A stretch of 28,945 bases of DNA from a virus: the IMG/VR virus record IMGVR_UViG_3300045885_000120, positions 1 to 28,945 of that record, one strand, 5' to 3'. A program made the translations under genes and the position numbers. This document shows positions 1 to 28,945 of this stretch, piece by piece (position 1 is the stretch's first letter; each line of letters starts with the position of its first letter). Below the pieces are notes generated by a model. That model ran no database searches, was not told the origin of the DNA, and saw only the letters and a program-made list of their open reading frames with translations.

Positions 1-463
1 CGCCGGCCGGGTCGTAGCCCTGCAGCATGCTCGCCCGGGCCGCGGCCGCCGGCAGCATCGGGATCGCCTCGGGCGTGCGCAGCGCGTGCGCGAACTGATC
101 GTCGCTGTCCGCCTCCACTTCCTGAATCACCAGCATCTCGCGGTCGAGCGCGCGCTCGTGCGTCTCGGCCGGGAAATCGTCATGCTGGGTATAGTTGGCC
201 GGCTGGGTGCGCGGCGTGTGCCGGCCGATGCGGATCGTCCAGCCGGCGCCCTTGGCGACCGTCGTCGTCACCGTGCCCGGCGCGACGTTGCCGCCGCTCA
301 CCGTATAGTCGGCGCCGAGCAGCAGCAGCGATCGAACGCCGGCCGGGTCAAACCGCTCGACGACAAGGTCGGCCGCGGCAATGAACTGGAAACCGGTCGG
401 CCAGTCCTTGGTCGAGCCATTCTCATCATAGCTGACGGGGACGGCGATGTCGGCGACGGTCAT
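1..463 (-). CDS. Tail fibre protein, N-terminal part (cut by window edge)
   Basis: About 154 residues are visible; the 3' end lies outside the window. The N-terminus resembles the T7 gp17-type tail-fibre attachment domain: a YDENGSTKDWPTGFQF-like opening (about residues 12-27), a repeated beta pattern ending in GADYTVSGG, then a TPRTQP segment and an ERALDRE helix followed by QEV. In that family this domain anchors the fibre to the tail tube, and the distal part, missing here, binds the host receptor. The ATG overlaps the stop of the 816-aa internal protein by 4 bp (ATGA), which fixes the start and indicates translational coupling. I am confident of the fibre assignment by pattern; receptor specificity cannot be judged. 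Confidence 0.8.
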   Translation of the reverse strand, partial: MTVADIAVPVSYDENGSTKDWPTGFQFIAAADLVVERFDPAGVRSLLLLGADYTVSGGNVAPGTVTTTVAKGAGWTIRIGRHTPRTQPANYTQHDDFPAETHERALDREMLVIQEVEADSDDQFAHALRTPEAIPMLPAAAARASMLQGYDPAG

Positions 464-2910
464 GGATTGCCTCCCATGTTGCTCAGTTCAGGCGGCCGGT
501 CCGGCGTCATGTCGCCGGGCTCCCACCAGTATTGCGTGCCAAGATCGTGGGCACGGCGCTCCATCGCGCGCCAGCTCCGGAAATAGGCCGGGTCGGCCGC
601 GGCCTGCCACTGGTCGAGGATGATGCGATCCCACGCCAGGCGCGCGTACCACAGCGAGCCGCCCGGGGTTTCCGATCGCAGCAGCTTCACGAGCTGCCGG
701 TCATAGTCGACCTTCTCGCCCTCGGCCTGCAGCAGCGGCGCTCCGACCACCAGCCCGGCGACGCCGCTCACCGTCGTCGCGCTCGGCCCGAGCAGCGTCT
801 CGCCAAGGCCCTGTCCGCCGCGGTTCTGCGCGCCGAACAGGAAATCGCCATAGATGCCGAGCCCGCCGCCCTGCTGCAGCGCCGCCAGCATGGTCTTGAC
901 GTTCAGCGGCCGCGGGTCCTGGCCCTTGAGGATCGCCTTCGCCTCCAGCGCCAGCCAGCCGGCGGCGGTCGCCGACAGCAGGAAGCTCGCGCCATAGAGC
1001 GCCTTGTTGAACCCGCCCTGCATCGCCAGCATCCGCGCGCCGTGATCGAACAGGATGGTCAGCGGAAAGCCCTTGAACTGGAACAGCGTTTTGGCCAGCT
1101 CGCCCTGCACCGTGCCGGGCCGGCCGAAGCCGGCGACGAACGCGCGCGACCGCACGCCCGGCGTCACCACCGCCATGTCCTGCTCGGTGTAGATCATGCG
1201 CATGATCGTGTCGGCCAGCCGGTCGTCGTCGAGCTGGTCGGGATGGAACCACTTCGATCCGTCCGCCGCCGTCACCAGCGGCGCCGCCTGCATCGCCTGC
1301 CAGTCCGCCGCGCCAATGCCGTAGCGTTCGAACATCGCGCGGAACCGCGGGTCGAGCTCAAGCCAGCCTTTCGCGCCCAGCTCGTCGGTGATGTGCGAGA
1401 GCGTCTCCATGCTGTACGCCATGCGCGAGGCATCGGTGTGCAGCTTCATCCCCGACACCTGCATGACGCCCTCGGCCAGCCGTGCCTGGAACTCGCCGGT
1501 CATTTCCTCGCCGAAGAAACGCGCCTGCGTCGAGAAGCCGGCGGCGACCTCGTCGGCGATGAAACCGAACCGCGCCGCCTGCTCGCGGTTGCCGCTCGAT
1601 GCCAGATAGCTGAGATAGTCGAAGCCGGTCCGGACCGCCGGGATGCCGTTGAACGCGCGGGTCAGCGTCTGCGTCGCCAGATCGGCCGGCAGCGCCGTCA
1701 CCACCGCGCTGCCCAGCTTGCTCGACACCTGATGCGCGCGCAGCCCGCTGCCGATCAGCCGGATCGCGTTGCGCTCGCCGCGGTTGGCCGCGCCCGACAG
1801 CACGCCGAAATAGCCGTCGATCCGGTTCAGCGAGGCCTGCGCGCGCTGCACCGCATCCGATCCGGCGCCGTGCTCCAGCAGCGCCTTGTTCATGATGACA
1901 TCCTTCAGCCAGCGCACCGTCGCCGCCGGATTGGGGCCAAGGATTTCCATCTGCGCGATGTCGCGGGCAAAGCTGTGCAGCTCGCCCATGATCGCGTCGA
2001 ACACATTGGGGTTGCCGTATTTCTCGGCGATCGCCAGCCAGTCGTCGGTCGACTTGTAGACGAAGAACCGCCGGTCCTGGCGCTGGTTGGCCAGCTTCAT
2101 GCCGCCGAACGCGCCTTCCTCGCGCGCTCCGGCGCCCTCGGTGACAATGTCCTGATAGGCCGCCTCGATCGCCGCATCGAGCGCCTCGGGCGTCGGCGCC
2201 TGCCCGGTGGACTGGTCGATCATCGCCTCGCGCTTCAGGCGCTGCAGCATGTCGGCCTTGAATTCGGCCATCGGCACCGCCGCCACCTTCGCCGAATCAT
2301 AGGCCTGCGCGACGCCGCGGTTCTCCAGCCAGCGCACGTTGCCGCCGGCCGCGTTGAACTGCGCGACCTGCAGCTTCTGCATCGCCAGCACCGCCTCGGC
2401 CAGCTCGGCCGCCGACTGGTTGCCGGTTTTCTCGCCGCGCATCTCGCGCAGGATGTCGAGCGTGCCGGCGGAATCGCGCACCATGCCGAGCAGGTTGCGG
2501 CTGTGCTTCTGCAGCACGCCGTTGATCATCGACAGCGCCTGGCGCCGGCGCCGGATTTCCTGATATTCGGCATTGCCTCGCCGGTAGGGCGCGCGGTCGT
2601 CCTTGGCGAAATGCGCCTCGCCCGCCTTGCCCCAGTCGAACTTGCCGGGCCGGCTGCGATAGGTGCCCATCGTCTCCAGCAAATCCTTCTTGACGGTGAT
2701 GTCGAGCAGCACCTGCCGGCGCTGCTCAAGCACCGCCGCGCTCAACTGCTCGACGGTCTGATGACCGGCCGCGGCGTCGGCCGCATATTGCCCGAAGGCC
2801 TGCCGCTGGCGCGTGCGCAGCTTCTCATAGAGCTGCTGCACATAGGCCGCCTGCTCGCGATCGAGCGCGCCCTGCGCGACCAGCTCGGGGATGCAGCGAT
2901 CGAGGCTCAT
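460..2910 (-). CDS. Internal virion protein, gp16-type DNA-ejection channel protein
   Basis: An 816-aa protein placed between the giant multidomain internal protein and the tail fibre, the place where T7-like phages encode their largest ejected core protein. The first 300 residues are mostly charged helices. A segment around residue 280 (FFVYKSTDDWLAIAEKYG) is of a kind I recognise in podoviral internal core proteins. The C-terminal third has hydrophobic stretches near residues 640-655 and 711-728, suited to membrane insertion during ejection. No lysozyme motif is evident; that activity sits in the upstream gene. The ATG overlaps the upstream stop (ATGA). Role by family and context: release from the capsid with the DNA and formation of the trans-envelope conduit. 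The exact homology to gp16 is inferred, not demonstrated. Confidence 0.72.
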   Translation of the reverse strand: MSLDRCIPELVAQGALDREQAAYVQQLYEKLRTRQRQAFGQYAADAAAGHQTVEQLSAAVLEQRRQVLLDITVKKDLLETMGTYRSRPGKFDWGKAGEAHFAKDDRAPYRRGNAEYQEIRRRRQALSMINGVLQKHSRNLLGMVRDSAGTLDILREMRGEKTGNQSAAELAEAVLAMQKLQVAQFNAAGGNVRWLENRGVAQAYDSAKVAAVPMAEFKADMLQRLKREAMIDQSTGQAPTPEALDAAIEAAYQDIVTEGAGAREEGAFGGMKLANQRQDRRFFVYKSTDDWLAIAEKYGNPNVFDAIMGELHSFARDIAQMEILGPNPAATVRWLKDVIMNKALLEHGAGSDAVQRAQASLNRIDGYFGVLSGAANRGERNAIRLIGSGLRAHQVSSKLGSAVVTALPADLATQTLTRAFNGIPAVRTGFDYLSYLASSGNREQAARFGFIADEVAAGFSTQARFFGEEMTGEFQARLAEGVMQVSGMKLHTDASRMAYSMETLSHITDELGAKGWLELDPRFRAMFERYGIGAADWQAMQAAPLVTAADGSKWFHPDQLDDDRLADTIMRMIYTEQDMAVVTPGVRSRAFVAGFGRPGTVQGELAKTLFQFKGFPLTILFDHGARMLAMQGGFNKALYGASFLLSATAAGWLALEAKAILKGQDPRPLNVKTMLAALQQGGGLGIYGDFLFGAQNRGGQGLGETLLGPSATTVSGVAGLVVGAPLLQAEGEKVDYDRQLVKLLRSETPGGSLWYARLAWDRIILDQWQAAADPAYFRSWRAMERRAHDLGTQYWWEPGDMTPDRPPELSNMGGNP

Positions 2911-3041
2911 TCGCCGCCTCCCGGGGTGCCCGGATCGAGGCAGCCGCGCAGCGCGTCGACCGCCGCCTGATTGCGGTCGAGCTGCTCAAGGATTTCCTCG
3001 ACGGTCCACTCGCGCCCAGCCTCATCGAGCCGGATGCGCAT
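2907..3041 (-). CDS. Possible 44-codon gene, also the C-terminal tail of the 1873-aa ORF
   Basis: An ATG at 3041 begins a 44-residue stretch (MRIRLDEAGREWTVEEILEQ at its start) in the same frame as the giant ORF. It starts 5 bp after the stop of the nested frame at 3047-3340. Codon third positions are again strongly GC-rich here, unlike the preceding 90 or so codons of the giant frame, so this piece looks like normal coding sequence. It could be a free-standing small gene fused to the giant ORF only because no stop codon intervenes, or the genuine C-terminal tail of the giant protein. The ribosome-binding site is weak (CCGGA just before ATG). Its stop overlaps the start of the 816-aa gene (ATGA). 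No function is recognised. Confidence 0.35.
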   Translation of the reverse strand: MRIRLDEAGREWTVEEILEQLDRNQAAVDALRGCLDPGTPGGGE

Positions 3042-6000
3042 TCCGGTCAGGCCGGCGGCGGCGGCTGCCGCTTGCGGTCCAGCATCTCCTGCACCTTGCG
3101 CAATCCCCTCACGCCCCGGGCCGCCTCCTCGCGGAACGGCTCCGCCAGCCGCTCGTCCTGGCTCGCCTTCTCCAGCCGGCGTATCAGCTCCGCCCGCTGC
3201 TCGTCCGACATCAGGCCCGGCCGCGGCTTCGGCCCCAGCGGCACCACCCGGGGCCGGCTGCTCAATCCGAACTTCTTCAGCAGCTTCTCGCGCTGCGGGT
3301 CGCTCGTCGATGGCGTAGGGGAATCCGGGGGCGTCGCCATAGTCTGCATCCTCTATCATGAACCCGGCGTCGCGCAAGCGATCGCGCTCCACGGCCTCGA
3401 TCGCCTGCGCCAGCGCGGTTTCCGGATCGTCGCCGGCCAGCCGGTGCTCGATCGCCAGCTCGACCGCCTCCATCGACACGTCGTCCGGCCCGAAGCCATG
3501 TTCGTCGAGCATCGCCGTCAGCTCGCCATAGGCCTCGTTGCCGGCATAGTCGGCCGCCTGCGCCTGCTCCTGCTCACGCGCCAGCGCCTCGGCCTCGGGA
3601 TGATAGACCTCGCCGGCCTGCTTCATCTCCTGCCCGCGGCGCCGCTTGGGTTTCGGCTCGCCGGGCTTGCGTTTGGGCGCCCGGACGCCCTTCTTCTGCG
3701 CCCGCGCGGCGAATGAGGCGCGCTCGATGAGCTGCAGCACTTCATCCTCCAGCGGCCGGTCCACCACCGACGGCGGCCCGAACCATCCGGCTTCCCACAG
3801 CGCCTCGCCAAGATCGTCGATCGACTGGCCGCCGGGCCGGATCAGCGGACCGACGCCGGGGATCAGCCGCTGCAGGTTGCGCTTGTCGATCAGGCCATGC
3901 CCCTCATCGTCGCGGATGCCGCCCATCTCGGCGATCACCCGCAGCAGCGGCTTGGGCTGGCCGTTCCTGAACACCGGCCCCGGCATCGCCACGCCCTCGC
4001 GCTGCAGCGCCGCGCGCGCCGGCCACGCCAGCGGCGGCTCGGCCGGTGGGGCAGTTCCGATTTCTTCACGCGACGGCCTGGCACCAGTCGTCGGTTCCGC
4101 TGCCCCGGTCGGAGCGGCCTCGGCCTCGGCAATTTCCGTCGCGACCGGATGGGCGCCAGGCAGGTCGGCGGGGATCGCCCGCGCCGGCGTGTTGGCGAGC
4201 GCGAAGGCATAGGCGAACGGCTCCGGTGTCAGCGATCGCAGGCCCTCGTTCTTTTCGTCGCGCCCGCGCAGCTTGTGCATCTTCGACCCCTCGGCCGGAT
4301 GCACGTTGGCGGTCGGCAGCACTGGCTCGAAATCGCCCCACAGGTGCGTGCGCTTGGTATAGGGCGAGCCGAAATGATGCGGCTGCATCACCAGCAACGG
4401 CTTGGGCAGGCCGGTCAGGCGCTCGATCCGGCCGGCCGGGTTCTCGATCACGAAGAAGGTATCGGGCTCCAGCCGGGCGATCATCTCCTCGGTGATGAGC
4501 ACCAGCGTCTGGTTATATTCGACCGGCGTGTCGAACATCTGCGCGGCCTTGGCGCCCCACATGCGGGTGACCGCATTGTCCCAAACTCGATCGTGCCGGG
4601 TCGATTGCCAGCGCGCGCCCGAATTGGTGAACGTCGTGCAGGGCGGCTGCGCGATCACGCCGCGGATGCGCGCGCCCTCGGCGACCATCTCGTCCAGCTC
4701 ATCGAGGATGGACTGGAAATCCTCCATCAGATCATGACCGCGCTTCAGGTCGAAGCGGATCACGGTCATGCCCATTTCCTCATAGGGCCTTGAGAAAATG
4801 CCCGACGCGTCGAACAGCGACACGACGACGTCATTCTCGTCGAACTGGCCGGACGCGCGGATGCGCTCGACCTCGGCCTTCCACTCGGCCAGCCGCGCAT
4901 CGGCCACCGCCTGCGGCAGCTCCGGGCCGACATAATGCTCGGTGTGGAACGTGCGCGGCGGCGCCGGCACCACGGTGCTCGGCTCGACCGGCTTGATCTC
5001 CTTCAGCTCCGGCTCGCCCTTGTCGACGAAGGTGATCTTGCCGGCCTTGATCAGCCGCTGCACTTCCTTGTCGGGATCGGCGCCGTCGAGGATGGCGTTC
5101 GCCAGCTCGTCGTGCGTCGCATCGCTATATTCGCCGATCAGCTTGCGCCCCTCGACGCGCACCGCCTGATCGTCGATCGCCCGCCGGATCGCCTCGCCGG
5201 CATCGGCCAGCGCCTGCTCGCCTTCATCGGTCGACGGCACCGCCAGCCAGTCCTCGGCGCCCAGCTCCTTGAGCCGCGCCCTGGCGTCGTCGGCCGTCGC
5301 CACCGGCTCGACCGTGCCGTCGCCGCGCACCAGCTCATAGCCGCCACCCTCGGCCAGCCGCACGTCGATCCGCTCGCCGGCGGCGATGAATTCCTGCGCC
5401 GGCACCATGCCAAGATCGAGCGCCGACACCATGCCCGGCGGGAACAGCGTCTCGCGAACGCCCGGCGCCGGCGCCGCCTCGCGCACCGTCGGCGCGAGCC
5501 ACCCCATCGCCTCGGCATATCCTTCCGGATAGTTGTCGGGATCAAAATCCTCCGGCATCGGCTCGTCCGGATACCGCACCATGAAGCCCGGTTCGTCCGG
5601 CTCGAATCCGAAACGCTGATAGAATTCGACGTTCCTCGGCTGCTCCGGCTTGACATAGACGGCCAGGCGCAGCTCGTCGGCGCGCTCGGCCAGCCTTTCC
5701 ATGACGCGCGTGCCCGCGCCTGTCCCGGTCGTGCGCGCATAAAGATCGGTCAGTTCGACCGCGACCGGCGGCAGGTCCGTTTCGCCAAGCCCGCCCATCC
5801 CATCGCGAATCTGGATCACCAGATCGACGCCCTGCTCATCGGCAAAGGCCTTCATTTCCTCGGCGAACGCGCGACCCGCCGCGCCGACGTCATCGGCCGC
5901 CGGCGCCGCCGGCGCCGCCGCCTCCGGCGCCTCCGGCAGTCTGATCGACTGCACCCGCGACAGGTCCGTCGTTTCCCGCCCGCGACGCGCTCCCGTTACC

Positions 6001-8528
6001 CGCTCGCCCTTCAGCTCCTTCAGCTCGGGTGCCACTTCATGCAGCCGCCGCATTATGTCGCGGACTTGCGCCGCGCCGAGCGCGCCGGGGCCGGGACCGG
6101 CAATGTCGATGCTGCCGACGCCATCCTCGTCAATGTGGACGGTCGCCGCAATCTCGCCGCCATATCCCATTTCGATCAGCGTCGTGCCGTCTGACAGCTC
6201 AGTCCGGTAGATACTCAACTCACCGGTCACCCGCTCGGCCGCCTCCAGCTCCATGCGCAGGTCGTGCTCAAGGCTGGCCGTCTGCAGCTCGGGACCGTCG
6301 CCGCCCGGCTCCACCCAGCGGTCCAGCTCGTGCGGATCGGCGCCGGTCGGCAGCGTGTCGTCGATCAGATCGTTCGCCACGTCCGGCGGCTGCCGGCCGG
6401 CGGTGCGGCGGGCGAGGATGCGATCGCGGAGTTGCTGCTCGGAAAGGCCGCGGATGCCGGCCGCCTCCAGCGCCTGCAGCTCGGCATAATATTCGTCGGC
6501 GAAAATCTCCGGCCGGCGCCCGGCCGCGACCGCCAGCAAATCCTCGCGGCCGGTGACGTGGCCGATTTCCTCCATCAGCACCGTCGACAGCGCGTCGGAA
6601 TTGGCCAGATCGTCCGCCACATCGGCCGCCGGCCGCGGCGTGCCCTTCGCACCGACGCGGAACCGCGGGCCATAATCGAGCAGCTTGATGCCGCCCTTCT
6701 GCGCCGCCATCAGCAGCCTGCGGTCGCTGGAGTCGTAGAGCTGGCCCATGTCCTCGCCGGCCTCGGCGATGCGCGCCAGGCGCTGCTCAAGCCGGGCCAG
6801 CGCATCATCGGGGCTCGCCGGCGGCGGCGTCGCGCGGGCCGCCAGCATCTCGTTCGTCGGCGCCTCGGCGGTGCCGATCGGATAGACCGGCCCGGCCTCG
6901 GCGCCGCGCAGCTCCGCTTCAAGCGCCTCCTGCGCCAGCCGGTGCTCCAGCGGGTCGGCGAACTGATCCGGGTCGAGCTGCGGGAATTCCTCGACCGACG
7001 CGACATCCGGCGCCTCGGGCGCCATGCCGGCCGGGAACGCCGGCCGCTCCACGTCCGGCGCCGCCGCCTCGCCCTCGGGCAGCGGCTCCGCGCCGGGCTC
7101 GATCTCGCCGCGCTCGCGGCCCAGCGCCGCCGCGCCGCGCCTCAGATCGCCCTCGGTTTCCGCGCCCTTCGCCGGCCGCATGAACTTCTTGATGTAGGCA
7201 TCGAGCACCTGCGTCTCGTCGCCCGCGGCCAGCACATGGCGGCCGCCATGGTCGCCGCCCTGCAGCTCCCAGTGCAGGAACTCGAGCTGCTGCTGGCGGG
7301 TCGGATTGGGGCCATAGCGGCGGTGCAGCTCGGCCTTGCGGCTGCCGAGCCACTGGCCGAGCCCCTGCGCGCCTGAATCGGGATTGATCGCCGTGTGATC
7401 GCCGCCGCGGGACTCGGCGGCGATGCCCGCCGCGATGCCACGCGCCTGCGCCTCGCTATAGCCCTTGCCGAGAAAGAACTGGACGATGTCGGCCGGCAGC
7501 GTCGGCGTCACCCGATGCGGCCGCGGCGCCCGGTGCGTCGGCGCCTGCGGCGTGCCGGCCGCGACCGAATTCGGCCCCAGCGTCTCGCGGATCGCCGCGT
7601 CGGTGCGCGCCACATGCTGCGCCGAGCCATCCGGCCCGGTGAACGGATTGGCCTCGGCGATGTCGCTGGTGCGGTTGACGACGTTGGTCGCGGCGCGCTG
7701 CTCGGGCGTCAGATTGTCGCCCATCAGGTCGTTGACCGTGTCGGCCAGCGCGCGGCTGCGCACCGTGCCGGCGCGGCGCCGGCGCCATACCTGGCCGCCC
7801 AGCTCGACGCCGCCCTCCAGCACGCCGCCAAGGATCGCATCGACGGTGACGTCGAGCGCCGCGTCGATCGCGCCATATTCCATGCCGGCTGCCTCGGCAT
7901 CGACCATCGTCGGGGCAATCAGCGCCGCGCTCATCGCCGCATTGGTCGCCGCCCCGCGCAGCGTCGCCGACAGCACCGCCCGGCCGCCAGTCAGCCCGGC
8001 CGCCGCCTCGCCGCCGATCGGGATGTAATTGATCGGGTCAGTCAGCCCATAGGCCAGCGCACCGCCGATCTGCGCGGTGAACGGCGAATCCTTCATCATC
8101 AGGTCGAGCCGCGCCGTCTCGCGCCGCCGCTCGCCTTGCGCCCATGACTGCATCGTCACGCCGTCGACCACGCCGGGCATGTCGATCAGCAGCCCGCGCC
8201 GGTGCAGCTCGCGCACGCCCTGCCAGTAGGTATCGGCCTGCGCGACGATCTGCCTGGCCCACGCATTGTTCGGATTGACCGCGAGCTGCCGGCGCGCGAC
8301 CGACTCCTGATAGGGATAGACGACCGCCGGCATTCCGGCCTTGGCCCGCGCCTTGTCGATCCGGTCGTGCCCCTCGCCGACCATCGCCGACTGATTGCGC
8401 CCATAGTCGGGCGCCACGCCGGCGCGCTGGAACGAAAGCCGGGCGGTGTCGAACCACGGCAGCGGCGAGGCCTGCGCGCCCTCTGGGCTGACCGGGTTCA
8501 TCTGCAGGACGGACGTCGGGCCGGCCAT
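2907..8528 (-). CDS. Giant multidomain (polyvalent-type) internal virion protein with lysozyme, GNAT and DNA methyltransferase-like domains
   Basis: An 1873-aa protein. Visible parts in order: N-terminal virion region with a small-residue-rich, hydrophobic stretch (about 155-240); phage tail-lysozyme-like domain (about 344-425, candidate catalytic Glu372 in AGIAAESRGG, then GAQGLGQW); an acidic, Pro/Ala-rich linker; a zincin-like but degenerate EEIGH (653-657); a region ending in KGERVTGARR (about 770-850); a GNAT acetyltransferase domain (about 900-988, RTTGTGAG at 932-939, FYQRFGFE); a cytosine-C5-methyltransferase-like domain (about 1234-1400: SLFDASGIF, PPC at 1295-1297, ENP at 1362-1364, YTKRTHLWG); and a conserved-looking module (about 1500-1605, GGIRDDEGHGL and LWEAGWFGP). 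Residues about 1743-1829 are Ala/Gly-rich with atypical codons because another frame is coding there. The gene abuts the upstream stop (TAA then ATG). Likely ejected with DNA to digest cell wall and perhaps protect incoming DNA; activities are inferred. Confidence 0.8.
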   Translation of the reverse strand: MAGPTSVLQMNPVSPEGAQASPLPWFDTARLSFQRAGVAPDYGRNQSAMVGEGHDRIDKARAKAGMPAVVYPYQESVARRQLAVNPNNAWARQIVAQADTYWQGVRELHRRGLLIDMPGVVDGVTMQSWAQGERRRETARLDLMMKDSPFTAQIGGALAYGLTDPINYIPIGGEAAAGLTGGRAVLSATLRGAATNAAMSAALIAPTMVDAEAAGMEYGAIDAALDVTVDAILGGVLEGGVELGGQVWRRRRAGTVRSRALADTVNDLMGDNLTPEQRAATNVVNRTSDIAEANPFTGPDGSAQHVARTDAAIRETLGPNSVAAGTPQAPTHRAPRPHRVTPTLPADIVQFFLGKGYSEAQARGIAAGIAAESRGGDHTAINPDSGAQGLGQWLGSRKAELHRRYGPNPTRQQQLEFLHWELQGGDHGGRHVLAAGDETQVLDAYIKKFMRPAKGAETEGDLRRGAAALGRERGEIEPGAEPLPEGEAAAPDVERPAFPAGMAPEAPDVASVEEFPQLDPDQFADPLEHRLAQEALEAELRGAEAGPVYPIGTAEAPTNEMLAARATPPPASPDDALARLEQRLARIAEAGEDMGQLYDSSDRRLLMAAQKGGIKLLDYGPRFRVGAKGTPRPAADVADDLANSDALSTVLMEEIGHVTGREDLLAVAAGRRPEIFADEYYAELQALEAAGIRGLSEQQLRDRILARRTAGRQPPDVANDLIDDTLPTGADPHELDRWVEPGGDGPELQTASLEHDLRMELEAAERVTGELSIYRTELSDGTTLIEMGYGGEIAATVHIDEDGVGSIDIAGPGPGALGAAQVRDIMRRLHEVAPELKELKGERVTGARRGRETTDLSRVQSIRLPEAPEAAAPAAPAADDVGAAGRAFAEEMKAFADEQGVDLVIQIRDGMGGLGETDLPPVAVELTDLYARTTGTGAGTRVMERLAERADELRLAVYVKPEQPRNVEFYQRFGFEPDEPGFMVRYPDEPMPEDFDPDNYPEGYAEAMGWLAPTVREAAPAPGVRETLFPPGMVSALDLGMVPAQEFIAAGERIDVRLAEGGGYELVRGDGTVEPVATADDARARLKELGAEDWLAVPSTDEGEQALADAGEAIRRAIDDQAVRVEGRKLIGEYSDATHDELANAILDGADPDKEVQRLIKAGKITFVDKGEPELKEIKPVEPSTVVPAPPRTFHTEHYVGPELPQAVADARLAEWKAEVERIRASGQFDENDVVVSLFDASGIFSRPYEEMGMTVIRFDLKRGHDLMEDFQSILDELDEMVAEGARIRGVIAQPPCTTFTNSGARWQSTRHDRVWDNAVTRMWGAKAAQMFDTPVEYNQTLVLITEEMIARLEPDTFFVIENPAGRIERLTGLPKPLLVMQPHHFGSPYTKRTHLWGDFEPVLPTANVHPAEGSKMHKLRGRDEKNEGLRSLTPEPFAYAFALANTPARAIPADLPGAHPVATEIAEAEAAPTGAAEPTTGARPSREEIGTAPPAEPPLAWPARAALQREGVAMPGPVFRNGQPKPLLRVIAEMGGIRDDEGHGLIDKRNLQRLIPGVGPLIRPGGQSIDDLGEALWEAGWFGPPSVVDRPLEDEVLQLIERASFAARAQKKGVRAPKRKPGEPKPKRRRGQEMKQAGEVYHPEAEALAREQEQAQAADYAGNEAYGELTAMLDEHGFGPDDVSMEAVELAIEHRLAGDDPETALAQAIEAVERDRLRDAGFMIEDADYGDAPGFPYAIDERPAAREAAEEVRIEQPAPGGAAGAEAAAGPDVGRAAGGADTPAGEGEPGRAAGGAVPRGGGPGREGIAQGAGDAGPQAAAAAAGLTGMRIRLDEAGREWTVEEILEQLDRNQAAVDALRGCLDPGTPGGGE
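3047..3340 (-). CDS. Nested small gene in an alternative frame of the giant internal-protein gene
   Basis: A 97-aa reading frame (MATPPDSPTPSTSDPQREKL at its start) lies entirely inside the 1873-aa ORF, in the +1 frame relative to it. The residues look like a real soluble protein: a Pro/Ser-rich N-terminus, then charged helices with LLKKFGL, SDEQRAELIRRLEKASQDER and LRKVQEMLDRK. By hand count roughly nine tenths of its codons end in G or C, against about half for the giant frame across the same bases, so selection appears to act on this frame. An AGAGG lies 9 nt before the ATG at 3340; an alternative ATG is at 3349. Function unknown. It may be a separate small protein, or the giant ORF may have lost its stop and run over it. 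Confidence 0.6.
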   Translation of the reverse strand: MATPPDSPTPSTSDPQREKLLKKFGLSSRPRVVPLGPKPRPGLMSDEQRAELIRRLEKASQDERLAEPFREEAARGVRGLRKVQEMLDRKRQPPPPA

Positions 8529-10535
8529 TTACTGGAATCCGCTTCGCTTCAAATCGCGCATGCCGCGGTTGACCGCATCCTGCGGCAGCGGCGGGAAATA
8601 GGGTTTCGCCTTCCAGATTTCGAATTTCAGCGGCCAGCCGTTCTTGCCGAGCACCGCATTGCCATCGGCGTCGCGCCACTCATATTTGCCTTCACCCTTG
8701 ACGTTCACGAGCTGGAAATTGCGGCGCAGCTCGTTCCACGAAATATAGCGGCCGCCGACATAGGCCTCGGACAGACCATCGAGCGGCTGCCAGTAACGCC
8801 GGTCGAAATCCTCCGCCGTCATGCTGCCCGGCAGCGCGATCGTGCCCTCGTTGACGACGTGCAGCCCGCCCTGCCGCTTCTGCGAGTATTCACCGCCCAG
8901 CGCCAGGCGCGCCGCCTCATTACCGATTGCGTCGGTATATTGGCCGGCGCCGCTCTGGCGGATCAGCGCCCGCGCGATCGACACCGCGGTCTGCTCGATC
9001 GCCGAGCCCTGCACGGCGCTCGCCCCCCTGAAGGCCTGCCGGATGCCGGCGAGCTGCTCGTGCATCTCCTCCTCAAGCGGGATGTCGTCGGCCGGCGTCT
9101 TTTCCTTGGCGACCTTGCGGCCGGCCAGCGCGAGCTGCTGCGAATGCCCCTCCAGCGTCGCGGCGATCTGGAACACCGGATCGCCCGGTGCGATGTCCAC
9201 CGCCGACGAATAGGCCGCCTCCGGCGAGAATTTGCTGATGTAGGCCAGCACCTGCTGCTGGCCGCCTTCGCCCGACGCCATCATGTCCTGCAACAGCTTG
9301 AGATGCTCGCCATAGACGAACCGCGGGAACTTGCCGTGCGTCTTGCTCCAGGCGATGATGTTGCCCTCGTAGAGCGCGACTTCCTGCTGCGTCGCGGTGC
9401 GCAGGTCCGGCGGCACGAAATAGGGCACCGCCTTCTCGACCTCGTTCAGCCGGCCGACCAGCGCGTCGCGCGTGAACACCGCGCCGCGATCGCGCTTCTT
9501 CCACTCCTCGGTCGCCTCCAGTTTCTCGATCTGCGCGCGCACCTGCATCGGCGTCGCGTTGGGCGGGATCGTCTCCAGCACCAGCGCCGCCTGCCGGGCG
9601 ATCTGCAGGTCGACCACCCGGCTCTTGTCAGCCGCCTGCTCGGCCTCGGCGATCTGCCGGTCGATCGTCGCCAGCTCGACATGCACGCCCTTCTCGACCA
9701 GCTTGACCGTCTCGCTCCACGCATCGCGCTGCGCCGTCAGCGCCGTCGAGGCGGCCGATTTCTTCGCATTCTCGGCGCGCAGGATCGCCGCCTCGGCGCG
9801 GTCGCGCAGCGGGCCGATCACCTTGTCGTCGAGCGTGCCGGCATAGGCGCCGCTGTCCAGCTCGGCGAGCTGCTGTTCGGGCGGCAGGCTGTCGATATAT
9901 TCGCTGGCGAGCAGGCTGCCGACCGTCGCCTTGGCCTTGCGCTTGTCCTCATCGGTTCCCGACGCCGCATCTATCGCGGCATATTGCGAATTGATGTGCG
10001 CGAAGGCCTGATCGCGCGTCGTGCCCGGCGTGCGGATCACCGCGCCGGTGAAGCGCACGCCATCGTCAATGTCCTGCCATTGCGCCGCCACCCGCCGGCC
10101 GGCCTGAAACGCCTCGGCGCGAAGGTTCATGCTGCCGGCATCGCCGGCCAGATCGACGTCCATCCGCTCGCGCACCCGCGGATTGGCGATCGCGGAGAGC
10201 ACTTCGCGCGAGCGGTCGCCGTACCATTTGCGATAGCCCTCGGCATGGCCCGCGCCGGCCGGCGCCGGGTTGGTTTCCATGTCCAGCGCCTTCTTGCGCG
10301 CCTCCAGCTTGAACTCGGCGACCGCCTTGGTGCCGGCGGCGAAATCGCTTTCATATTGCCGCTGCGCTTCCAGCTCCTTCGCCTCGACATTGGCCCGGTG
10401 CAGCACGCCGCCGAGCTGGGCCGCTGACCGACCGATGCCCGCGCCGAATGCTTCCGGCGAGACACCGGTCAGCCGCGCCGCCCCGCCGGCATCCACCTGG
10501 CTCTCGTAGCGACGTTCCTGCGGTGCGCGTGCCAT
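8529..10535 (-). CDS. Internal core protein (gp15-position ejection protein)
   Basis: A 668-aa, largely alpha-helical, charged protein with long coiled-coil-like segments (for example AKELEAQRQYESDFAAGTKA and IDRQIAEAEQAADKSRVVDL) and no signal peptide or membrane segment. It lies between a gp14-type protein and the giant lysozyme-containing protein, the position of T7 gp15 and its counterparts, which stack on the portal inside the capsid and form the periplasmic tunnel after ejection. Similarity to gp15 is by position, size and helical character; I see no diagnostic motif. The ATG at 10535 lies 3 bp after the upstream TAG, with AGGAAATAGGGG as ribosome-binding region. Its own TAA directly abuts the ATG of the giant gene. 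Confidence 0.68.
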   Translation of the reverse strand: MARAPQERRYESQVDAGGAARLTGVSPEAFGAGIGRSAAQLGGVLHRANVEAKELEAQRQYESDFAAGTKAVAEFKLEARKKALDMETNPAPAGAGHAEGYRKWYGDRSREVLSAIANPRVRERMDVDLAGDAGSMNLRAEAFQAGRRVAAQWQDIDDGVRFTGAVIRTPGTTRDQAFAHINSQYAAIDAASGTDEDKRKAKATVGSLLASEYIDSLPPEQQLAELDSGAYAGTLDDKVIGPLRDRAEAAILRAENAKKSAASTALTAQRDAWSETVKLVEKGVHVELATIDRQIAEAEQAADKSRVVDLQIARQAALVLETIPPNATPMQVRAQIEKLEATEEWKKRDRGAVFTRDALVGRLNEVEKAVPYFVPPDLRTATQQEVALYEGNIIAWSKTHGKFPRFVYGEHLKLLQDMMASGEGGQQQVLAYISKFSPEAAYSSAVDIAPGDPVFQIAATLEGHSQQLALAGRKVAKEKTPADDIPLEEEMHEQLAGIRQAFRGASAVQGSAIEQTAVSIARALIRQSGAGQYTDAIGNEAARLALGGEYSQKRQGGLHVVNEGTIALPGSMTAEDFDRRYWQPLDGLSEAYVGGRYISWNELRRNFQLVNVKGEGKYEWRDADGNAVLGKNGWPLKFEIWKAKPYFPPLPQDAVNRGMRDLKRSGFQ

Positions 10536-24197: not shown

Positions 24198-24367
24198 GCC
24201 CGGCACTCCAGCACGACGCGCCGCAACGGACATTGCAGCGCCTGACAATCATCCAGCGCGGCCGCCGAGCAGCGCGGGCAGTCATGGGCCAGCTCGTCGA
24301 GCGCCTGCAGAACCTCGCTGACACACCGCCGGCTGAACACCACGATCCAGATCGTTGCGCCGATCAT
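24194..24367 (-). CDS. Tiny cysteine-rich protein
   Basis: A 57-aa gene found by reading the minus strand. It has a hydrophobic N-terminus (MIGATIWIVVFSRRC) and then HDCPRCSAAALDDCQALQCP, with six cysteines in all, two as CPRC. GGGAGG lies 8 nt before the ATG, and both ends overlap their neighbours by 4 bp. The N-terminal stretch might be a signal anchor, although it is short. Zinc binding is plausible; function unknown. Confidence 0.65.
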   Translation of the reverse strand: MIGATIWIVVFSRRCVSEVLQALDELAHDCPRCSAAALDDCQALQCPLRRVVLECRA

Positions 24368-24585
24368 GGCCGCACCCTCCCAACGTCCTTGAGCTTGAAG
24401 CCATCCGGCTGTTCCGGGTCGGCCTCAAGCCAGCCCTGGCAGAAAAGCCGCAGCCACGTCAGCGCGGCGAACCCGAGCTTCTGCTCTCCGGCCCAGGCGT
24501 TGCCATAGCGGTCTAAGGTGCCGCGCCCGCCGTGCTTGCCGAGCCGCTCCAGAGCGCGCGCGCCTGCTTTGGTGAGCGCCCTCAC
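24364..24585 (-). CDS. Small hypothetical protein, GTG start
   Basis: A 73-aa basic protein starting with GTG at 24585, overlapping the previous stop (GTGA). It reads VRALTKAGARALERLGKHGG at its start and has FAALTWLRLFCQGWLE in the middle and a DGFKLKDVGRVRP end. The arrangement (helix, aromatic-rich core, short tail) resembles a small winged-helix or helix-turn-helix-like domain, but I see no clear signature. A long open frame upstream of the GTG is read out of frame through the preceding genes and is rejected. Confidence 0.68.
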   Translation of the reverse strand: MRALTKAGARALERLGKHGGRGTLDRYGNAWAGEQKLGFAALTWLRLFCQGWLEADPEQPDGFKLKDVGRVRP

Positions 24586-24770
24586 AGGAACAGCCTCCCC
24601 AGCGCGCCGCGCTCGTCGAGCACCGTCGAGATTTCCTGCATCGCGAACATCCGCCCGCACTCGGCCTCGACCGTCTCGGCCGACGTGTCGATCTCCAGCC
24701 GCGCATAGCGACGGTGCAGCTCGTCGGTCCGCATGTTCCGATATTGGGTCCGGTCGAGCGCGTATTTCAT
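24582..24770 (-). CDS. Small hypothetical protein, first of the tiny-gene train
   Basis: A 62-aa charged helical protein (MKYALDRTQYRNMRTDELHR at its start; later FAMQEISTVLDERGALGRLF). GAGG lies 7 nt upstream of the ATG at 24770; an in-frame GTG at 24773 is an alternative. It follows the LamG-like gene by 12 bp and couples into the next gene (GTGA). No known function. Confidence 0.68.
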   Translation of the reverse strand: MKYALDRTQYRNMRTDELHRRYARLEIDTSAETVEAECGRMFAMQEISTVLDERGALGRLFL

Positions 24771-24782
24771 CACATCGCCTCA

Positions 24783-25553
24783 TCAGGTCATGAAGGTGTT
24801 GAGCGCGTTGTAGAACGCCGTCACTTCGCCCTGCGACAGACCGGCGCCCCAATGCACCGCATGGATGCGGCGCGGCGAGAAGTTGGCCGGCGTGCCGGCG
24901 TTGTTGATGCAGCAGACGTTGATCGCCACCGTCTCCAGCGCGACCGACGCGCCCGCCGCCGTGACCAGCGTGCCGCCATCCTTGGCGCAGCCATTGTTGG
25001 CCGAATCCACCCGGTTGGCGATGTAATGGCCGATCGAGCTGGTCACCGCCTGCGTCACCGCGTTCGACGACTGCACCCGGAAGCTCGCCACCAGCGCGTT
25101 GTTGCTGACCACCCGGTTCTGATTGGTGCCGCAATCGACCCCGGTGCCGTTGAAGTCGGTGCCGATCCACGCGCCGAGATGGCCGCTGTTGGCGATGAAC
25201 TTGGTGTTGGCGTTCACCGCCTTGCCACTGTTCAGATAGCTGGTCGTGCCATTGCCCTGGTAGCCGCCCGCCGCGCCGGCGGTGAAGGTCGGCGCATTGA
25301 CCTCGCTCATCGCCTCGGCCGGGTTGACCGCGTTCAGCCGCGCCGCCTGCGCCGTCTCCTGCTGCGCGAACAGCGACAGCCAGTCGAGCTTGGCCCACAG
25401 GCCGGCGCCCTTCAGCGTGGCGATCAGCGTGTTGATGCGCGCCTTCAGCGGATCGGACGGCGCCGTCGACATCGCCGCGAAATAGGTCAGGCTCTCCGCC
25501 TCGTAGGTGATCGCGTCGACCGCCGGGCCGGCACCAAGCAGGGGCAGCGTCAC
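24783..25553 (-). CDS. Adhesin-like virion protein with LamG/concanavalin-like domain
   Basis: A 256-aa protein. The first 80 residues are helical (ARINTLIATLKGAGLWAKLD, then WLSLFAQQETAQAARLNAVN). From about residue 85 it shows the beta pattern FTAGAAGGYQGNGTTSYLNS followed by repeated strand blocks and SPRRIHAVHWGAGLSQGEVT and FYNALNTF at the end. This 'laminin-G-like' layout is one I recognise in phage structural proteins that bind glycans or the cell surface. The start is GTG at 25553 with GGAGGT 7-8 nt upstream, 3 bp after the previous stop. A receptor-binding or head-decoration role is likely; which one cannot be settled. Confidence 0.72.
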   Translation of the reverse strand: MTLPLLGAGPAVDAITYEAESLTYFAAMSTAPSDPLKARINTLIATLKGAGLWAKLDWLSLFAQQETAQAARLNAVNPAEAMSEVNAPTFTAGAAGGYQGNGTTSYLNSGKAVNANTKFIANSGHLGAWIGTDFNGTGVDCGTNQNRVVSNNALVASFRVQSSNAVTQAVTSSIGHYIANRVDSANNGCAKDGGTLVTAAGASVALETVAINVCCINNAGTPANFSPRRIHAVHWGAGLSQGEVTAFYNALNTFMT

Positions 25554-25556
25554 CGC

Positions 25557-25973
25557 TCAAACCTCCGCATAGACCAGCTCGCCGCCGACCGCGACGGCTC
25601 CGCTGAGATTCAAGTTCAGCGCCTCGCCGGCGTTGGTTTCAAACCAGCCGACCGGGCAGAACGCCGCCGAGATGCCGCCATTGGCCGCGAAGTATTTCAG
25701 GCCCGTCTTGTCGTTGGCGGCTGACTGGAACTTGGCGTTGACCGCGCCGCTGGCAAACAGCGTGTAGGCCAGCACCCTGATCTTCTTGCCGCTGACCGCC
25801 GCGACGATCGCATTGGAGCCGGATGCGCCGACCTGAATCGACGCAAATTTCGGCGTGAGCTGGGTCTGCCCGTTGTAGACGCCGCCCGGCGACGCCGGCA
25901 CCATTTCCTGATCGATGTCGCCGGTGCAGACGACGACGAGATTCTTTGATTCCGCATTTGGTCGTGACATCAT
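25557..25973 (-). CDS. Virion protein with shared N-terminal module and beta C-terminal domain
   Basis: A 138-aa protein. Its first 26 residues (MMSRPNAESKNLVVVCTGDI and onward to EMVP) match the start of the 142-aa gene at 27304-27732. The remaining 110 residues are a different domain: KIRVLAYTLFASGAVNAKFQ, then GGISAAFCPVGWFETNAGEA and NLNLSGAVAVGGELVYAEV. This second part follows a pattern common in small structural proteins of phages from many hosts. The ATG overlaps the upstream stop (ATGA), with GGAG 5 nt upstream; the second ATG (25970) is an alternative start. Likely a head-fibre, decoration or adhesin component. Confidence 0.72.
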   Translation of the reverse strand: MMSRPNAESKNLVVVCTGDIDQEMVPASPGGVYNGQTQLTPKFASIQVGASGSNAIVAAVSGKKIRVLAYTLFASGAVNAKFQSAANDKTGLKYFAANGGISAAFCPVGWFETNAGEALNLNLSGAVAVGGELVYAEV

Positions 25974-27307
25974 CGAAACTCCACTTGGAAATAGCCGCCG
26001 TTCACTCCGCTCGCGGCAGTCGGGTTGTGGACGAAGCAACGGATGTGACTGAGGCCCTGCGTCGGCATCCACATGCCCATGCCGGCAAGCAAATCCTGCC
26101 CGCCGGTCTGACACTCGGCGGTGAACTGGCCCCGCGCCGAGCCAAGATCGTCCTGCGCCCAGCTCAACCAGTCGCCGGCGCTGCTGTTGTTCGCCGTGTG
26201 CAGGGTGGCCCGATATTCCTTCACCCCGTTGGGGATGTTGATCCGGTCGCTGTTGGTGACCGGATCGTGCAGCCCGAGCGGGTCCCAAATGTCGGTGCCG
26301 TCCCACAGCACCGCCGTGCTGACGCCGGCGCTGATCGCCTGCGCGGCGGACTTTTGGGCGATGCAATATTTGTGGTTGGCCGGGATTTCCTCGACACACA
26401 CCCATGTGCGCCCGCTGCCCTCGGCGTTCCACGAGGCGACCGTGCTCCAGCTCGGGATGGTGATGATGTCGCCCGGCACGACGTCGAAGATGCGGCTGGC
26501 GATAGTCAGATATTTGGTCGTCGATGTGCCGTCGCCATATTCGTAGGTGACCTGCGGGACGCCGTTGATGTAGACCGCGATGGCACAGGCGCCGGCCACC
26601 GCCGCGAGTGACTTGGCGCCGGCGGTGACGCGCAGCTTGCCGGTCGTGCCGGCCGGAACGACGAGATTGGCGCCGCTCGTCCACAGGCCCAGCGTGTCGA
26701 CATTCTCGACGTCCCAAATCAGCGGCGTGCCCGCGGTGCTCAGTGCCTGATTGGTGTTCTTCTGCAGGAACGTGTAGCGCGTGCCAGGCGCCAGCACTTC
26801 GACGCCGAACCAGTTCTTGTCGGTCTGCACCTGCTGCGACGTCGCCACCGCCGTTTCGAGCCAGTGCTGAAACCGCTCGCCGGCCACCGCCGGCAGGATC
26901 GCCGACAGCAGATAGGTCTGCGTGTCGCCGCCGGATTCGCCGCGCGACAGCGTATCACCGTTGAACCGGCCATAGGCCGAGACGCCATCATATTTGCGCA
27001 GGCCGGTGAAGATCGTCGAGTTGCTGACATAGCAGGCCGCGTGCAGCCGCATGAGCTGGATGCGCGGATTGCTGGGCGTCACCAGCGTCGCATTGTCGCC
27101 AAGCGACTCCCAGCCAGGCCCGTCATAGATGGTATTCGAATAGCGGGTGATCGCGGCGATCGCCGAGCCGATCGAGCCGGTCGACGGCACTTCCAGCAGC
27201 GCGCCATATTGGGTTGACCGGAATTTCGCGGGACCGGCCGCCACCGGCGGGAAGAACGGCGGCGATCGTCCCAGCTTGCGGTCCCAGAATTTCCGGTCGT
27301 GCATCAT
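25970..27307 (-). CDS. Putative receptor-binding or decoration protein with three jelly-roll-like repeats
   Basis: A 445-aa, beta-rich protein made of three related units, about residues 34-175, 176-313 and 314-445. Each has a strand pair ending in a W/L-D-x-x-x-x-D-x-x-G/L-W stretch followed by a P-x-G-x-x-x-x-R-x segment: DGPGWESLGDNATLVTP, then TPLIWDVENVDTLGLWTSGA, then TAVLWDGTDIWDPLGLHDPV. The layout resembles C1q-like jelly-roll domains found in phage fibres and decoration proteins. The start at 27307 overlaps the previous stop (ATGA); a longer in-frame extension runs backward through the neighbouring gene and is rejected. Expected to be displayed on the virion. Target unknown. Confidence 0.7.
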   Translation of the reverse strand: MMHDRKFWDRKLGRSPPFFPPVAAGPAKFRSTQYGALLEVPSTGSIGSAIAAITRYSNTIYDGPGWESLGDNATLVTPSNPRIQLMRLHAACYVSNSTIFTGLRKYDGVSAYGRFNGDTLSRGESGGDTQTYLLSAILPAVAGERFQHWLETAVATSQQVQTDKNWFGVEVLAPGTRYTFLQKNTNQALSTAGTPLIWDVENVDTLGLWTSGANLVVPAGTTGKLRVTAGAKSLAAVAGACAIAVYINGVPQVTYEYGDGTSTTKYLTIASRIFDVVPGDIITIPSWSTVASWNAEGSGRTWVCVEEIPANHKYCIAQKSAAQAISAGVSTAVLWDGTDIWDPLGLHDPVTNSDRINIPNGVKEYRATLHTANNSSAGDWLSWAQDDLGSARGQFTAECQTGGQDLLAGMGMWMPTQGLSHIRCFVHNPTAASGVNGGYFQVEFR

Positions 27308-27732
27308 GTGAACTTGCCCACCGCCAGCGCCGACACGTTCGCCCCGGTCGTGATCCGCCAGCCGGCGGCCAGCGCGGTCGCCCCGATCGGCACCGCGATC
27401 GGCGCAAGGATCGGCAGCGCCACCGTGCCGCCGCCGACGAACAGGGTGATGGTCGCGCCGCCGGGACCGTCCTTGATCGAGACGGCGCCGCAGGCATCGG
27501 TCAGCGGCGTGATGATGATGTGCGAAAGGTAATCGCCGACCGCCCCGACCGCGCCGAGCACGGAATCGGTCGAACCGGCCGCGATCGCCTTGTAGTCGTC
27601 CGGGTCGTTGGCCGAGACGCCGGCCGACACCGGCAGCGGATTGGACGGCCCGATCGGCACCATCTCGCTGTCGATGTCTCCCGTGCAGGGGACCATCAGG
27701 TTCCTCGCTTCTGCACCTGGCCGTGACATCAT
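27304..27732 (-). CDS. Virion-like protein with shared N-terminal module
   Basis: A 142-aa protein. The first 26 residues (MMSRPGAEARNLMVPCTGDI and onward to EMVP) closely match the start of the gene at 25557-25973. The rest is a different beta/Ala-Gly-rich domain: LGAVGAVGDYLSHIIITPLT, then GAVSIKDGPGGATITLF and GTVALPILAPIAVPIGA. The start at 27732 overlaps the small-terminase-like stop (ATGA); ATG at 27729 has GGAGG 6 nt upstream and is an alternative. Likely structural, as the neighbouring genes, but the exact role is unknown. Confidence 0.7.
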   Translation of the reverse strand: MMSRPGAEARNLMVPCTGDIDSEMVPIGPSNPLPVSAGVSANDPDDYKAIAAGSTDSVLGAVGAVGDYLSHIIITPLTDACGAVSIKDGPGGATITLFVGGGTVALPILAPIAVPIGATALAAGWRITTGANVSALAVGKFT

Positions 27733-28346
27733 TCGCCTCCGTTCCCCGGTAGATCATCCTCCGGCCGCGCGACGCGCACCGCCTCGCCGTCGATCGCCGC
27801 ATCGCGCAGGTCGTGCCCGCCGATTTCCTCGATGATCTTGACGCCGAGAATCCGGGCGTCGATCGCCACCGGCTTCTTCGAATGGACGTAGGGCATCAGG
27901 CCCTCCGCGCAGCGGACGCGCAGGCTCTGCGCCTCGTAATAGCTCATGCTCTCCTCGACGGTCACCAGCCGGTCCTTGACGATCTTGGTAACGGTGCGCT
28001 TGCTCGCCTCGACCAGCAGCTCCGGCGGCGTCGTCTGGATTTGCATCATGGTCACCGCCGGGTCCTGCCCGAAGCTGCGGATGTACCGTTCGAAATCGTC
28101 GGTCCGCCGGTTGCGGACGCCCTGCGGCCGGCCGCGCCTGGTAGCTCGCGCGTGGCGCACGACGGTCAGGTCGCCGGCGTTGCCGCCCAGCTCCTCGCGC
28201 GCCTCGGCGATTTCCTCCGGCGTCGGCGGGTCGAGCAGGTCGAGTTGCGTTTCCTCGGCCTCGGCCGCGGCCAGCAGCTCGCGCGACGTGTCGACCGCCT
28301 GCCGGGCGACGGCTTCGAAGCCGTCCATTTTCTGCGGCGACGTCAC
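27729..28346 (-). CDS. Small-terminase-like protein
   Basis: About 205 aa from a GTG at 28346 (GAGGG just upstream), or 199 aa from the ATG at 28328; longer starts at 28427 or 28640 are possible but less coding-like. Features: helical N-terminus (EAVARQAVDTSRELLAAAEA), a basic TRRGRPQGVRNRRTDDFERY segment typical of TerS-like or DNA-binding proteins of this placement, then a helical core with AVTMMQIQTTPPELLVEASK and RVRCAEGLMPYVHSKKP. In phages of this type such a protein selects DNA and hands it to the large terminase. It is unusually far from terL here (about 4 kb). It heads the late operon. The assignment is by pattern and is tentative. Confidence 0.55.
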   Translation of the reverse strand: MTSPQKMDGFEAVARQAVDTSRELLAAAEAEETQLDLLDPPTPEEIAEAREELGGNAGDLTVVRHARATRRGRPQGVRNRRTDDFERYIRSFGQDPAVTMMQIQTTPPELLVEASKRTVTKIVKDRLVTVEESMSYYEAQSLRVRCAEGLMPYVHSKKPVAIDARILGVKIIEEIGGHDLRDAAIDGEAVRVARPEDDLPGNGGE

Positions 28347-28662
28347 GCCGCCCTCGCCCGGTTGACAGGCCTGCGGGATCGGCTCAGTGTCAGCGTTCCG
28401 CGACGATTCCGCCCGATCGGAGCCCATCCCATCCCCAACCCCAAGCCAGGCGGTGAAATTTCGCCACCGCTCCCAATCAGGTGCCCGATCGAAATCCTGA
28501 CGCCATCCAGCGCCAGCACCCGGCGATCGTGGCGATCGGCTGGGGGGGGCCACCCCGGTCGCCGGCCGGATCGGCCGCGGCCGCGCCGGAAATGGCCGCG
28601 ATAATGCCCCATTGACGGCGGCCGGCCCGAATGCGCCCATATTTCAGGCACATAGCCGGCCG

Positions 28663-28684
28663 GTTCCAACGCACCCGTTCCAAC
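28663..28684. repeat. Pair of GTTCCAAC direct repeats
   Basis: Two identical 8-bp units, 28663-28670 and 28677-28684, with a 14-bp period. Close, same-phase spacing is the sort seen in binding sites for DNA-binding proteins. No binding factor can be named. Confidence 0.4.
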
Positions 28685-28690
28685 AACGCC

Positions 28691-28719
28691 CGATTCCGCC
28701 CCGTTTTCCGTCGGAATCG
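28691..28719. repeat. Inverted repeat
   Basis: CGATTCCG (28691-28698) and CGGAATCG (28712-28719) form perfect 8-bp arms separated by 13 bp. It lies in the presumed leader region, next to the GTTCCAAC direct repeats. It may be an operator or hairpin. Confidence 0.45.
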
Positions 28720-28873
28720 CCGGCCAGGCGCCGAGCGGCGCCCAAAACTTTCGCCGCCGATCCCGAGCTGCGGAGTGCAAATCGGCCGATCCGGCGCGCG
28801 CTCGACCGCGGCCGGCCGGTGCGATCCGATAAGCACCCTTCAGACAATTCGCCGCCGGCGCCTGGCCCGCGGC

Positions 28874-28916: not shown

Positions 28917-28945
28917 GCTAAGCCGCTGAAACAATAAGACAATAT

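Follow-up and report, generated by a model that had tools for sequence, protein, structure and literature searches.

A C5-cytosine methyltransferase domain predicted within an enlarged gp16-slot protein of an epsilon15/phiV10-type podovirus

The 28,945-nucleotide stretch of viral DNA analyzed here (IMG/VR record IMGVR_UViG_3300045885_000120, positions 1 to 28,945, referred to below in its entirety as the window) encodes on its minus strand a protein of 1873 amino acids (aa) that occupies the gene slot of the gp16 ejection protein of epsilon15/phiV10-type podoviruses and that contains, in addition to a lysozyme domain, a C5-cytosine DNA methyltransferase by motifs and predicted fold and a probable GNAT acetyltransferase. 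The reading we favor, and consider fairly probable, is that a gp16-slot ejection protein has grown into a polyvalent protein delivering the methyltransferase and the GNAT enzyme. The anatomy of this protein is well supported; we infer its packaging, ejection, catalysis, target, and benefit, as well as the protection from restriction that an initial annotation of the same sequence had suggested. Polyvalent ejection proteins are a known kind of protein, and no description of a cytosine methylase in an ejection or polyvalent protein was found in the open-access literature among the matches listed.

The methyltransferase is the best defined part of the cargo. A PHROGs search matched aa 1228-1452 to phrog_757, "DNA methyltransferase", with E = 7.4e-33, and the expected motifs follow one another as SLFDASG (from aa 1237), PPC (1295-1297), ENP (1362-1364), YTKRT (from 1390), and RSLTPEPFA (from 1431). 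An alignment with six phage relatives contains 25 invariant columns, including the cysteine of PPC, ENP, YxK, and RSxTP, and when 85 relatives are compared, the window domain fits all 10 of their invariant columns and 27 of the 30 columns conserved at 95% or more. The AlphaFold2 model (50 rows) gave blocks with predicted local distance difference test (pLDDT) values of 84-97 over aa 1200-1449, but 51-63 at aa 1300-1329. Foldseek returned Dnmt3a (E = 1.5e-4) as the sole match at E ≤ 0.001, and in VIA-align 2, which was a second look at Foldseek's own candidates, the best 50 entries were all C5 DNA methyltransferases (Z 12.4-13.9; DNMT3A 13.9, M.HhaI 13.4, M.HaeIII 12.5). A profile search of the PDB with alignment A1 listed cytosine methyltransferases among coiled-coil noise. 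By its motifs and predicted fold, aa 1204-1456 is a motif-complete C5-cytosine methyltransferase whose activity is predicted; its divergence is clear from the sequence, and decay of the domain appears unlikely. It is also very unlikely that the domain serves as a catalytically dead DNA-binding clamp for DNA translocation, like the C-terminal part of T7 gp16, since the catalytic cysteine, ENP, and YTK are all kept along with every column invariant in the 85 relatives, even though T7 gp16-C does bind DNA (PMC8954989) and the window domain sits on a long branch.

The gene encoding this protein lies near the late virion genes, in a block that runs from a head-tail adaptor/portal gene (head-tail adaptor family phrog_332) through the major head protein (phrog_3437), a tail protein (phrog_376), and proteins of 235, 668, 1873, and 816 aa, the last belonging to phrog_684, to the start of a tail-fibre gene. 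The same order is found in phiV10 and Tr60_Ab31, and these neighbors identify the window as a genome fragment from a podovirus of the epsilon15/phiV10 type. The 1873-aa gene falls between the gp15-slot gene and the gp17 (phrog_684) gene, as the ejection-protein position assigned in the initial annotation implied. Slot proteins are much shorter in phiV10 (600 aa), Tr60_Ab31 (579 aa), L005 (643 aa), and Dunaliella virus SI2 (792 aa), and blastp at E up to 0.1 aligned none of these four with the window protein; they measure 888 aa in MT835534 and 1059 aa in MT835618, two nearer relatives that do match. The MT835618 protein aligned with aa 77-405 (E = 9e-10) and with aa 1500-1604 (42% identity, E = 2e-15), and the MT835534 protein with aa 45-314 (E = 1e-6). 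The Dunaliella record, NC_023841 (Dunaliella viridis virus SI2, L008), carries an algal host label together with an epsilon15-type phage virion block, and the label is therefore doubtful.

Three further slot proteins (L183, L187, and L206) match the window protein within aa 251-761 at 37-47% identity (E = 2e-58 to 9e-60) and stop just past a module of the form SLxHD..CL. In the window protein this module is split, with its first half at about aa 737-775 and its last at aa 1832-1867, and the approximately 1050 aa between the halves hold the GNAT segment, the methyltransferase, and a slot-type module at aa 1521-1604. One possible origin of the protein, read from these alignments, is recombination between two slot proteins together with the gain of cargo. 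The parts flanking the cargo are thus homologous to slot proteins, and on this sequence evidence the 1873-aa protein is the gp16-slot component itself, enlarged; the proposal in the initial annotation that it replaces a podoviral core component is thereby ruled out.

A fusion of this kind could in principle be an assembly artefact uniting unrelated genes, which we consider highly improbable. The virus record of 28945 bases is possibly a fragment, the fusion was not seen in the other slot relatives sampled, and the GC content at third codon positions (GC3) of the GNAT part, 0.79, is below that of the whole ORF (open reading frame), 0.856. Against this, the frame is single and unbroken, starting with ATG, containing no internal stops, and overlapping the next gene by 4 bases; the methyltransferase, with a GC3 of 0.879, is close in this measure to the ORF as a whole and to five neighbors (0.867-0.907); and slot-type modules stand on both flanks of the cargo.

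The slot is modular among the relatives that were sampled. Loci were collected with a gp17 profile, 76 from genomes and, out of 331 viral ones, the best 80, and a slot ORF was picked by position in 150 of these 156 loci (L094-L249); 142 of the 150 ORFs are complete, the median length is 1013 aa, and the longest, in L244, is 1873 aa. The genome loci closest in gp17 are mainly from sphingomonads, and a sphingomonad host is therefore likely for the window phage. Pfam was run at E 0.001 on 91 slot proteins that represent the complete ORFs after clustering at about 60% identity. Wall hydrolases vary among them (SLT 5, Phage_lysozyme2 4, GH108 3, SLT_2 1, Transglycosylas 1), and some representatives carry polyvalent-type domains (ddrB-ParB 7, Zeta_toxin 4, PBECR1 2, PBECR3 1, LPD23 1, LPD3 1) or others (AAA_33 4, MutS_I 1, Bro-N 1, GntR 1, AAA_18 1). 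A Pfam GNAT was present in a single representative (Acetyltransf_1 and _7, 1 each). The AAA_33 matches overlap Zeta_toxin in the 2 slot proteins inspected, and, as the domain counts total 40, at least 51 of the 91 have no Pfam domain. PHROGs, applied to 42 of the 91, matched 17 to a transglycosylase family and 20 to phrog_10691.

Individual slot proteins in this sample showed further features. In L177 and L196, the Zeta_toxin kinase domain, which is toxin-like, lies in the C-terminal third of the predicted ejection protein. The slot protein of L244 (L244:4383-10004) has the length of 1873 aa by coincidence, and blastp at E 0.001 did not align it with the window protein; it contains LPD23, HExxH motifs (aa 1145 and aa 1415), and a stretch resembling ParB, and its phrog_10691 stretch also matches a ParB-like family. 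A cysteine occurs within the last 15 residues of 145 of the 150 slot proteins, compared to 63 of 7500 random 15-residue windows from the same proteins.

Relatives of the methyltransferase were collected separately. At least 342 were confirmed in viral contigs and the best 80 loci were kept. Because similarity to an alignment led by the domain of the window itself decided which loci were chosen, the 26 of 80 loci in which the domain is fused into a larger protein (ORFs of 1488-5113 aa, nine running off the locus) are no census. In the other 54 loci, the methyltransferase ORF is shorter than 400 aa. Fifteen of the 26 fused ORFs were scanned, giving LPD38 in 12, ddrB-ParB and LPD1 in 2 each, and LPD39, MuF_C, ART-PolyVal, and SLT in 1 each, while PHROGs matched phrog_757 in 15/15 and a DarB-like family in 2. 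Mean identity to the window domain was 41% for 27 fused rows and 37% for 55 solo rows, and the window has in common with the fused rows a helix before motif I and a longer stretch of the GRIxxLTGLP type. In a first tree, from a MAFFT auto alignment, the window's end branch measured 2.48 and the program warned of a long solo branch; after realignment with L-INS-i and rebuilding of the tree, a fused grouping appeared, in which the window domain joins 27 fused domains and L033 with support of 98/72. One of 87 rows, shorter than 150 aa, was dropped from the trees, and the L-INS-i alignment was also without L044, L068, and L079. L033 is an ORF of 382 aa from a virus that also has pieces resembling giant proteins. 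These comparisons indicate that the window methyltransferase is likely kin to the methyltransferases inside giant phage proteins. Searching 397 genomes from the family of a Sphingopyxis genome gave a methyltransferase match at E 1e-10 in 3, at five places with open frames of at most 285 aa, one of which has two internal stops.

The same data bear on whether delivery is needed at all. The methyltransferase might instead act in the producing cell, made late and methylating progeny DNA before packaging, with the fusion serving co-expression or recruitment to packaging DNA. The gene does lie within the virion block, and the many related phage methyltransferases that are separate genes (54 of the 80 loci described above) require no delivery, but a separate gene would do for this purpose, 27 of the window's 28 tree partners are parts of giant proteins, and LPD38 occurs in 12 of the 15 scanned. 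We consider this explanation unlikely.

Several known systems resemble the window protein in part. The epsilon15/phiV10 gp16-slot protein is like it in gene position, and by position like T7 gp16, and the nearer slot relatives share parts of its sequence, the C-terminal cysteine tail, and in some cases a wall hydrolase; the phiV10 protein is unlike it in length and has no blastp match to it at E up to 1. DarB of P1 and JC1 gp69 (Bcep22-like) are also large proteins with a DNA methylase that are published as virion-packaged: P1 DarB is packaged in virions (PMC9024508), and the DarB-like giant of phage JC1 was found in virions with 51 unique peptides (PMC9144972). DarB, the precedent invoked in the initial annotation, is an adenine methylase fused to an SNF2-type ATPase (PMC5512222), whereas the window protein has a methylase of the cytosine-C5 type and gave no adenine methylase, SNF2, or helicase match when Pfam was searched up to E 1 and PHROGs up to E 0.1. 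Membership in the DarB group is thus ruled out, and the likeness to polyvalent proteins stands, the closest named relative of the methyltransferase lying inside a 5145-aa protein of Pseudomonas phage 8P. That protein matches at 42% identity over aa 1209-1456 and is annotated as structural; it is far longer, scores above cutoff for Eco57I, Helicase_C, and LPD23 and slightly under it for SNF2, and outside the methyltransferase has no match to the window protein. The Dcm-like methyltransferases of phrog_757, from TLS-type siphoviruses, are a related domain with the same motif set, but they are separate genes with about 27-28% identity (tblastn).

In past work on polyvalent proteins, the methylases are mostly EcoKI/TaqI-like adenine enzymes (Iyer et al. 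2017, PMC5512222), with no cytosine type described; its main text uses the word cytosine a single time, within a reference, and never mentions epsilon15, BPP-1, or gp16. According to the same source, phage polyvalent proteins are typically encoded near late virion genes, zincin and LPD domains are frequent in them but not obligatory, and their GNATs are suggested to modify proteins; for the window protein, nothing found here points to DNA protection by its GNAT. The window protein likewise joins disparate activities in one polypeptide, namely a lysozyme, a C5 methyltransferase, and a probable GNAT. Phage 8P is the only Pseudomonas record matching the methyltransferase, and no publication on it was found among the matches listed. 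About 1300 residues near the C-terminal end of its giant protein are 74% alike with F116-like relatives (e.g., phiC725A), with which it forms a natural with/without pair.

The initial annotation had assigned lysozyme, GNAT, and cytosine methyltransferase-like domains to this ORF, and the first and last of these were borne out by family matches, the lysozyme domain by PF18013 (50.5 bits against a cutoff of 28.2). For the GNAT, the signatures are present, with the RxxGxG-like motif at aa 932-937 (R-TT-G-T-G) and FYQRFGF at aa 969-975, and a sequence search of the PDB with the segment lists three N-acetyltransferases first (E = 0.023-0.11) and then four unrelated rows (E = 0.37-1.9). Three GNAT Pfam models fell at aa 934-981, all sub-threshold (E = 0.004-0.018), PF00583 scoring 17.9 bits against a cutoff of 20.7 (E = 0.004). 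The predicted methyltransferase fold agreed with the proposed assignment; the GNAT fold came from a low-confidence single-sequence model only (mean pLDDT 49.6), for which Foldseek placed puromycin N-acetyltransferase first (E = 1.3e-3, probability 0.99) and listed other GNATs mixed with unrelated rows. A tblastn search of phages with the segment at E 1 gave no match. Because the Pfam scores are below cutoff, the PDB matches weak, and the model of low confidence, aa 870-990 or thereabouts is graded a probable, and not a certain, GNAT acetyltransferase.

Epsilon15 is reported to eject internal virion proteins, and T7 gp16 comprises a periplasmic hydrolase part and a DNA-binding part presumed to be cytoplasmic at the DNA exit (PMC8954989). 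Modeled on this, the window protein would sit in the internal core of the virion; at infection, crossing the envelope and opening it would fall to the N-terminal part with the lysozyme, as it does to gp16-N in T7, while the C-terminal part would arrive in the cytoplasm; a T7 gp16-like domain order would thus put the methyltransferase in the cytoplasm where the DNA exits. There the enzyme would methylate DNA at entry, most likely the incoming phage DNA, which would then be spared by cytosine-sensitive restriction enzymes, and the GNAT would acetylate some host protein. The ejected methyltransferase might alternatively target the host chromosome or other mobile elements, altering host expression or exposing the DNA of rivals to modification-dependent restriction. 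Other cargo of the slot (Zeta_toxin, PBECR) does look host- or rival-directed, but phage DNA would presumably be the first to reach a C5 methylase placed where DNA enters, and we regard this target as distinctly unlikely.

Beyond the sub-threshold GNAT scores, a number of observations weigh against delivery of a working methyltransferase by an enlarged slot protein. Ejection is predicted here for an uncultured phage, and Pfam at E up to 1 shows no zincin peptidase or LPD able to release the domains. With only a few enzyme copies, methylation of the entire genome might come too late for protection. The Pfam C-5 methylase model, PF00145, fails to match the window protein even when E is relaxed to 1, although it recovers phage 8P above cutoff (24.8 bits vs 22) and, at E 0.001, 6 of 15 relatives. 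In the window domain, motif IV is followed by an insert of 16 residues; the domain also differs at 19 of the 64 columns fixed in 27 fused relatives (45 are kept) and has a long branch, 1.68, in the L-INS-i tree. A free-standing relative, L045, is as close as the fused ones (44% over 180 columns, the fourth-closest row), and the support of 98/72 is not starred by the program, so the fused grouping is likely, not proven. The methyltransferase hidden Markov model matched 0/150 of the slot relatives, as did the GNAT segment (phmmer, E 0.1), and the combination of both in a slot protein may therefore be young.

A broader proposal, which we offer tentatively and at slightly less than an even chance, is that C5 methyltransferases are a recurrent module, of which no description was found, of ejected polyvalent proteins, and that the epsilon15-type gp16 slot is a cargo bay placing them at DNA entry, where, just as infection begins, they would convert cytosines of incoming (or host) DNA to 5-methylcytosine. 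If ejection proteins do carry swappable enzymes, podoviruses would have a delivery bay that acts before phage gene expression, and the modular slot would be a catalogue of candidate early-acting effectors. A C5 methylase in this slot would be an anti-restriction route different from that of DarB, and phage 8P, which is sequenced and has a named host, Pseudomonas stutzeri, would allow it to be tested.

Table 1 Features of the gp16-slot protein and its neighbors, in window coordinates
Feature	Position	Strand	Basis
gp16-slot ejection protein with polyvalent cargo, 1873 aa (predicted)	2907..8528	-	ORF; epsilon15/phiV10-type gene order; homologous slot proteins in nearer relatives
aa 1-345, N-terminal chassis common to some other gp16-slot proteins	7494..8528	-	blastp to MT835618 and MT835534 proteins; matches among 150 relatives
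aa 347-467, Phage_lysozyme2 peptidoglycan hydrolase domain	7128..7490	-	PF18013, E 3.3e-13
aa 737-775, first half of the family's C-terminal module (..SLEHDLR..), cargo next	6204..6320	-	alignment with L183, L187, L206; blastp to L187, E 6e-4
about aa 870-990, probable GNAT acetyltransferase	5559..5921	-	RxxGxG 932-937, FYQRFGF 969-975, Pfam sub-cutoff, PDB, Foldseek
aa 1044-1169, domain without family match, between GNAT and methyltransferase	5022..5399	-	predicted model
aa 1204-1456, predicted C5-cytosine DNA methyltransferase (METHYLTRANSFERASE)	4161..4919	-	motifs, phrog_757, model, structural matches
aa 1521-1604, module in common with other gp16-slot proteins (..IRDDEGHGLI..)	3717..3968	-	MT835618 protein, further relatives
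aa 1832-1867, second half of C-terminal module, RGCL tail (Cys 1863)	2928..3035	-	relatives, alignment
epsilon15 gp17-like virion protein, 816 aa, downstream neighbor	460..2910	-	phrog_684, E 1.2e-143
gp15-slot protein, 668 aa, upstream neighbor	8529..10535	-	24% identity to MT835618 homologue, E 6e-21

The gp15-slot neighbor had no PHROGs or Pfam match, and the large minus-strand ORFs in window positions 24364-28942 had no Pfam match at E 0.01. Bases 1-25000 of the window gave a single 59-base match when compared with phages, and a search of viral contigs with six exact peptide patterns returned no relatives of the whole protein. NCBIfam gave no score near the cutoffs of that collection, phmmer with the full 1873 aa gave no PDB match at E 1, and aa 560-870 had no tblastn match in phages at E 1. 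The domain between the GNAT segment and the methyltransferase, for which neither Pfam nor PHROGs matched a family, was modeled in blocks with pLDDT 80-92, falling to 51-67 at aa 1090-1109 and 1120-1129 and to 61 at its start. The sequence MEEIGH at aa 652-657 (6558-6575) is possibly a degenerate zincin motif. By hydropathy, the most hydrophobic stretch of the protein is aa 219-241, within the N-terminal chassis, and the entire protein contains only two cysteines, one in the PPC motif and the other at the C-terminal tail (codon 2940-2942).

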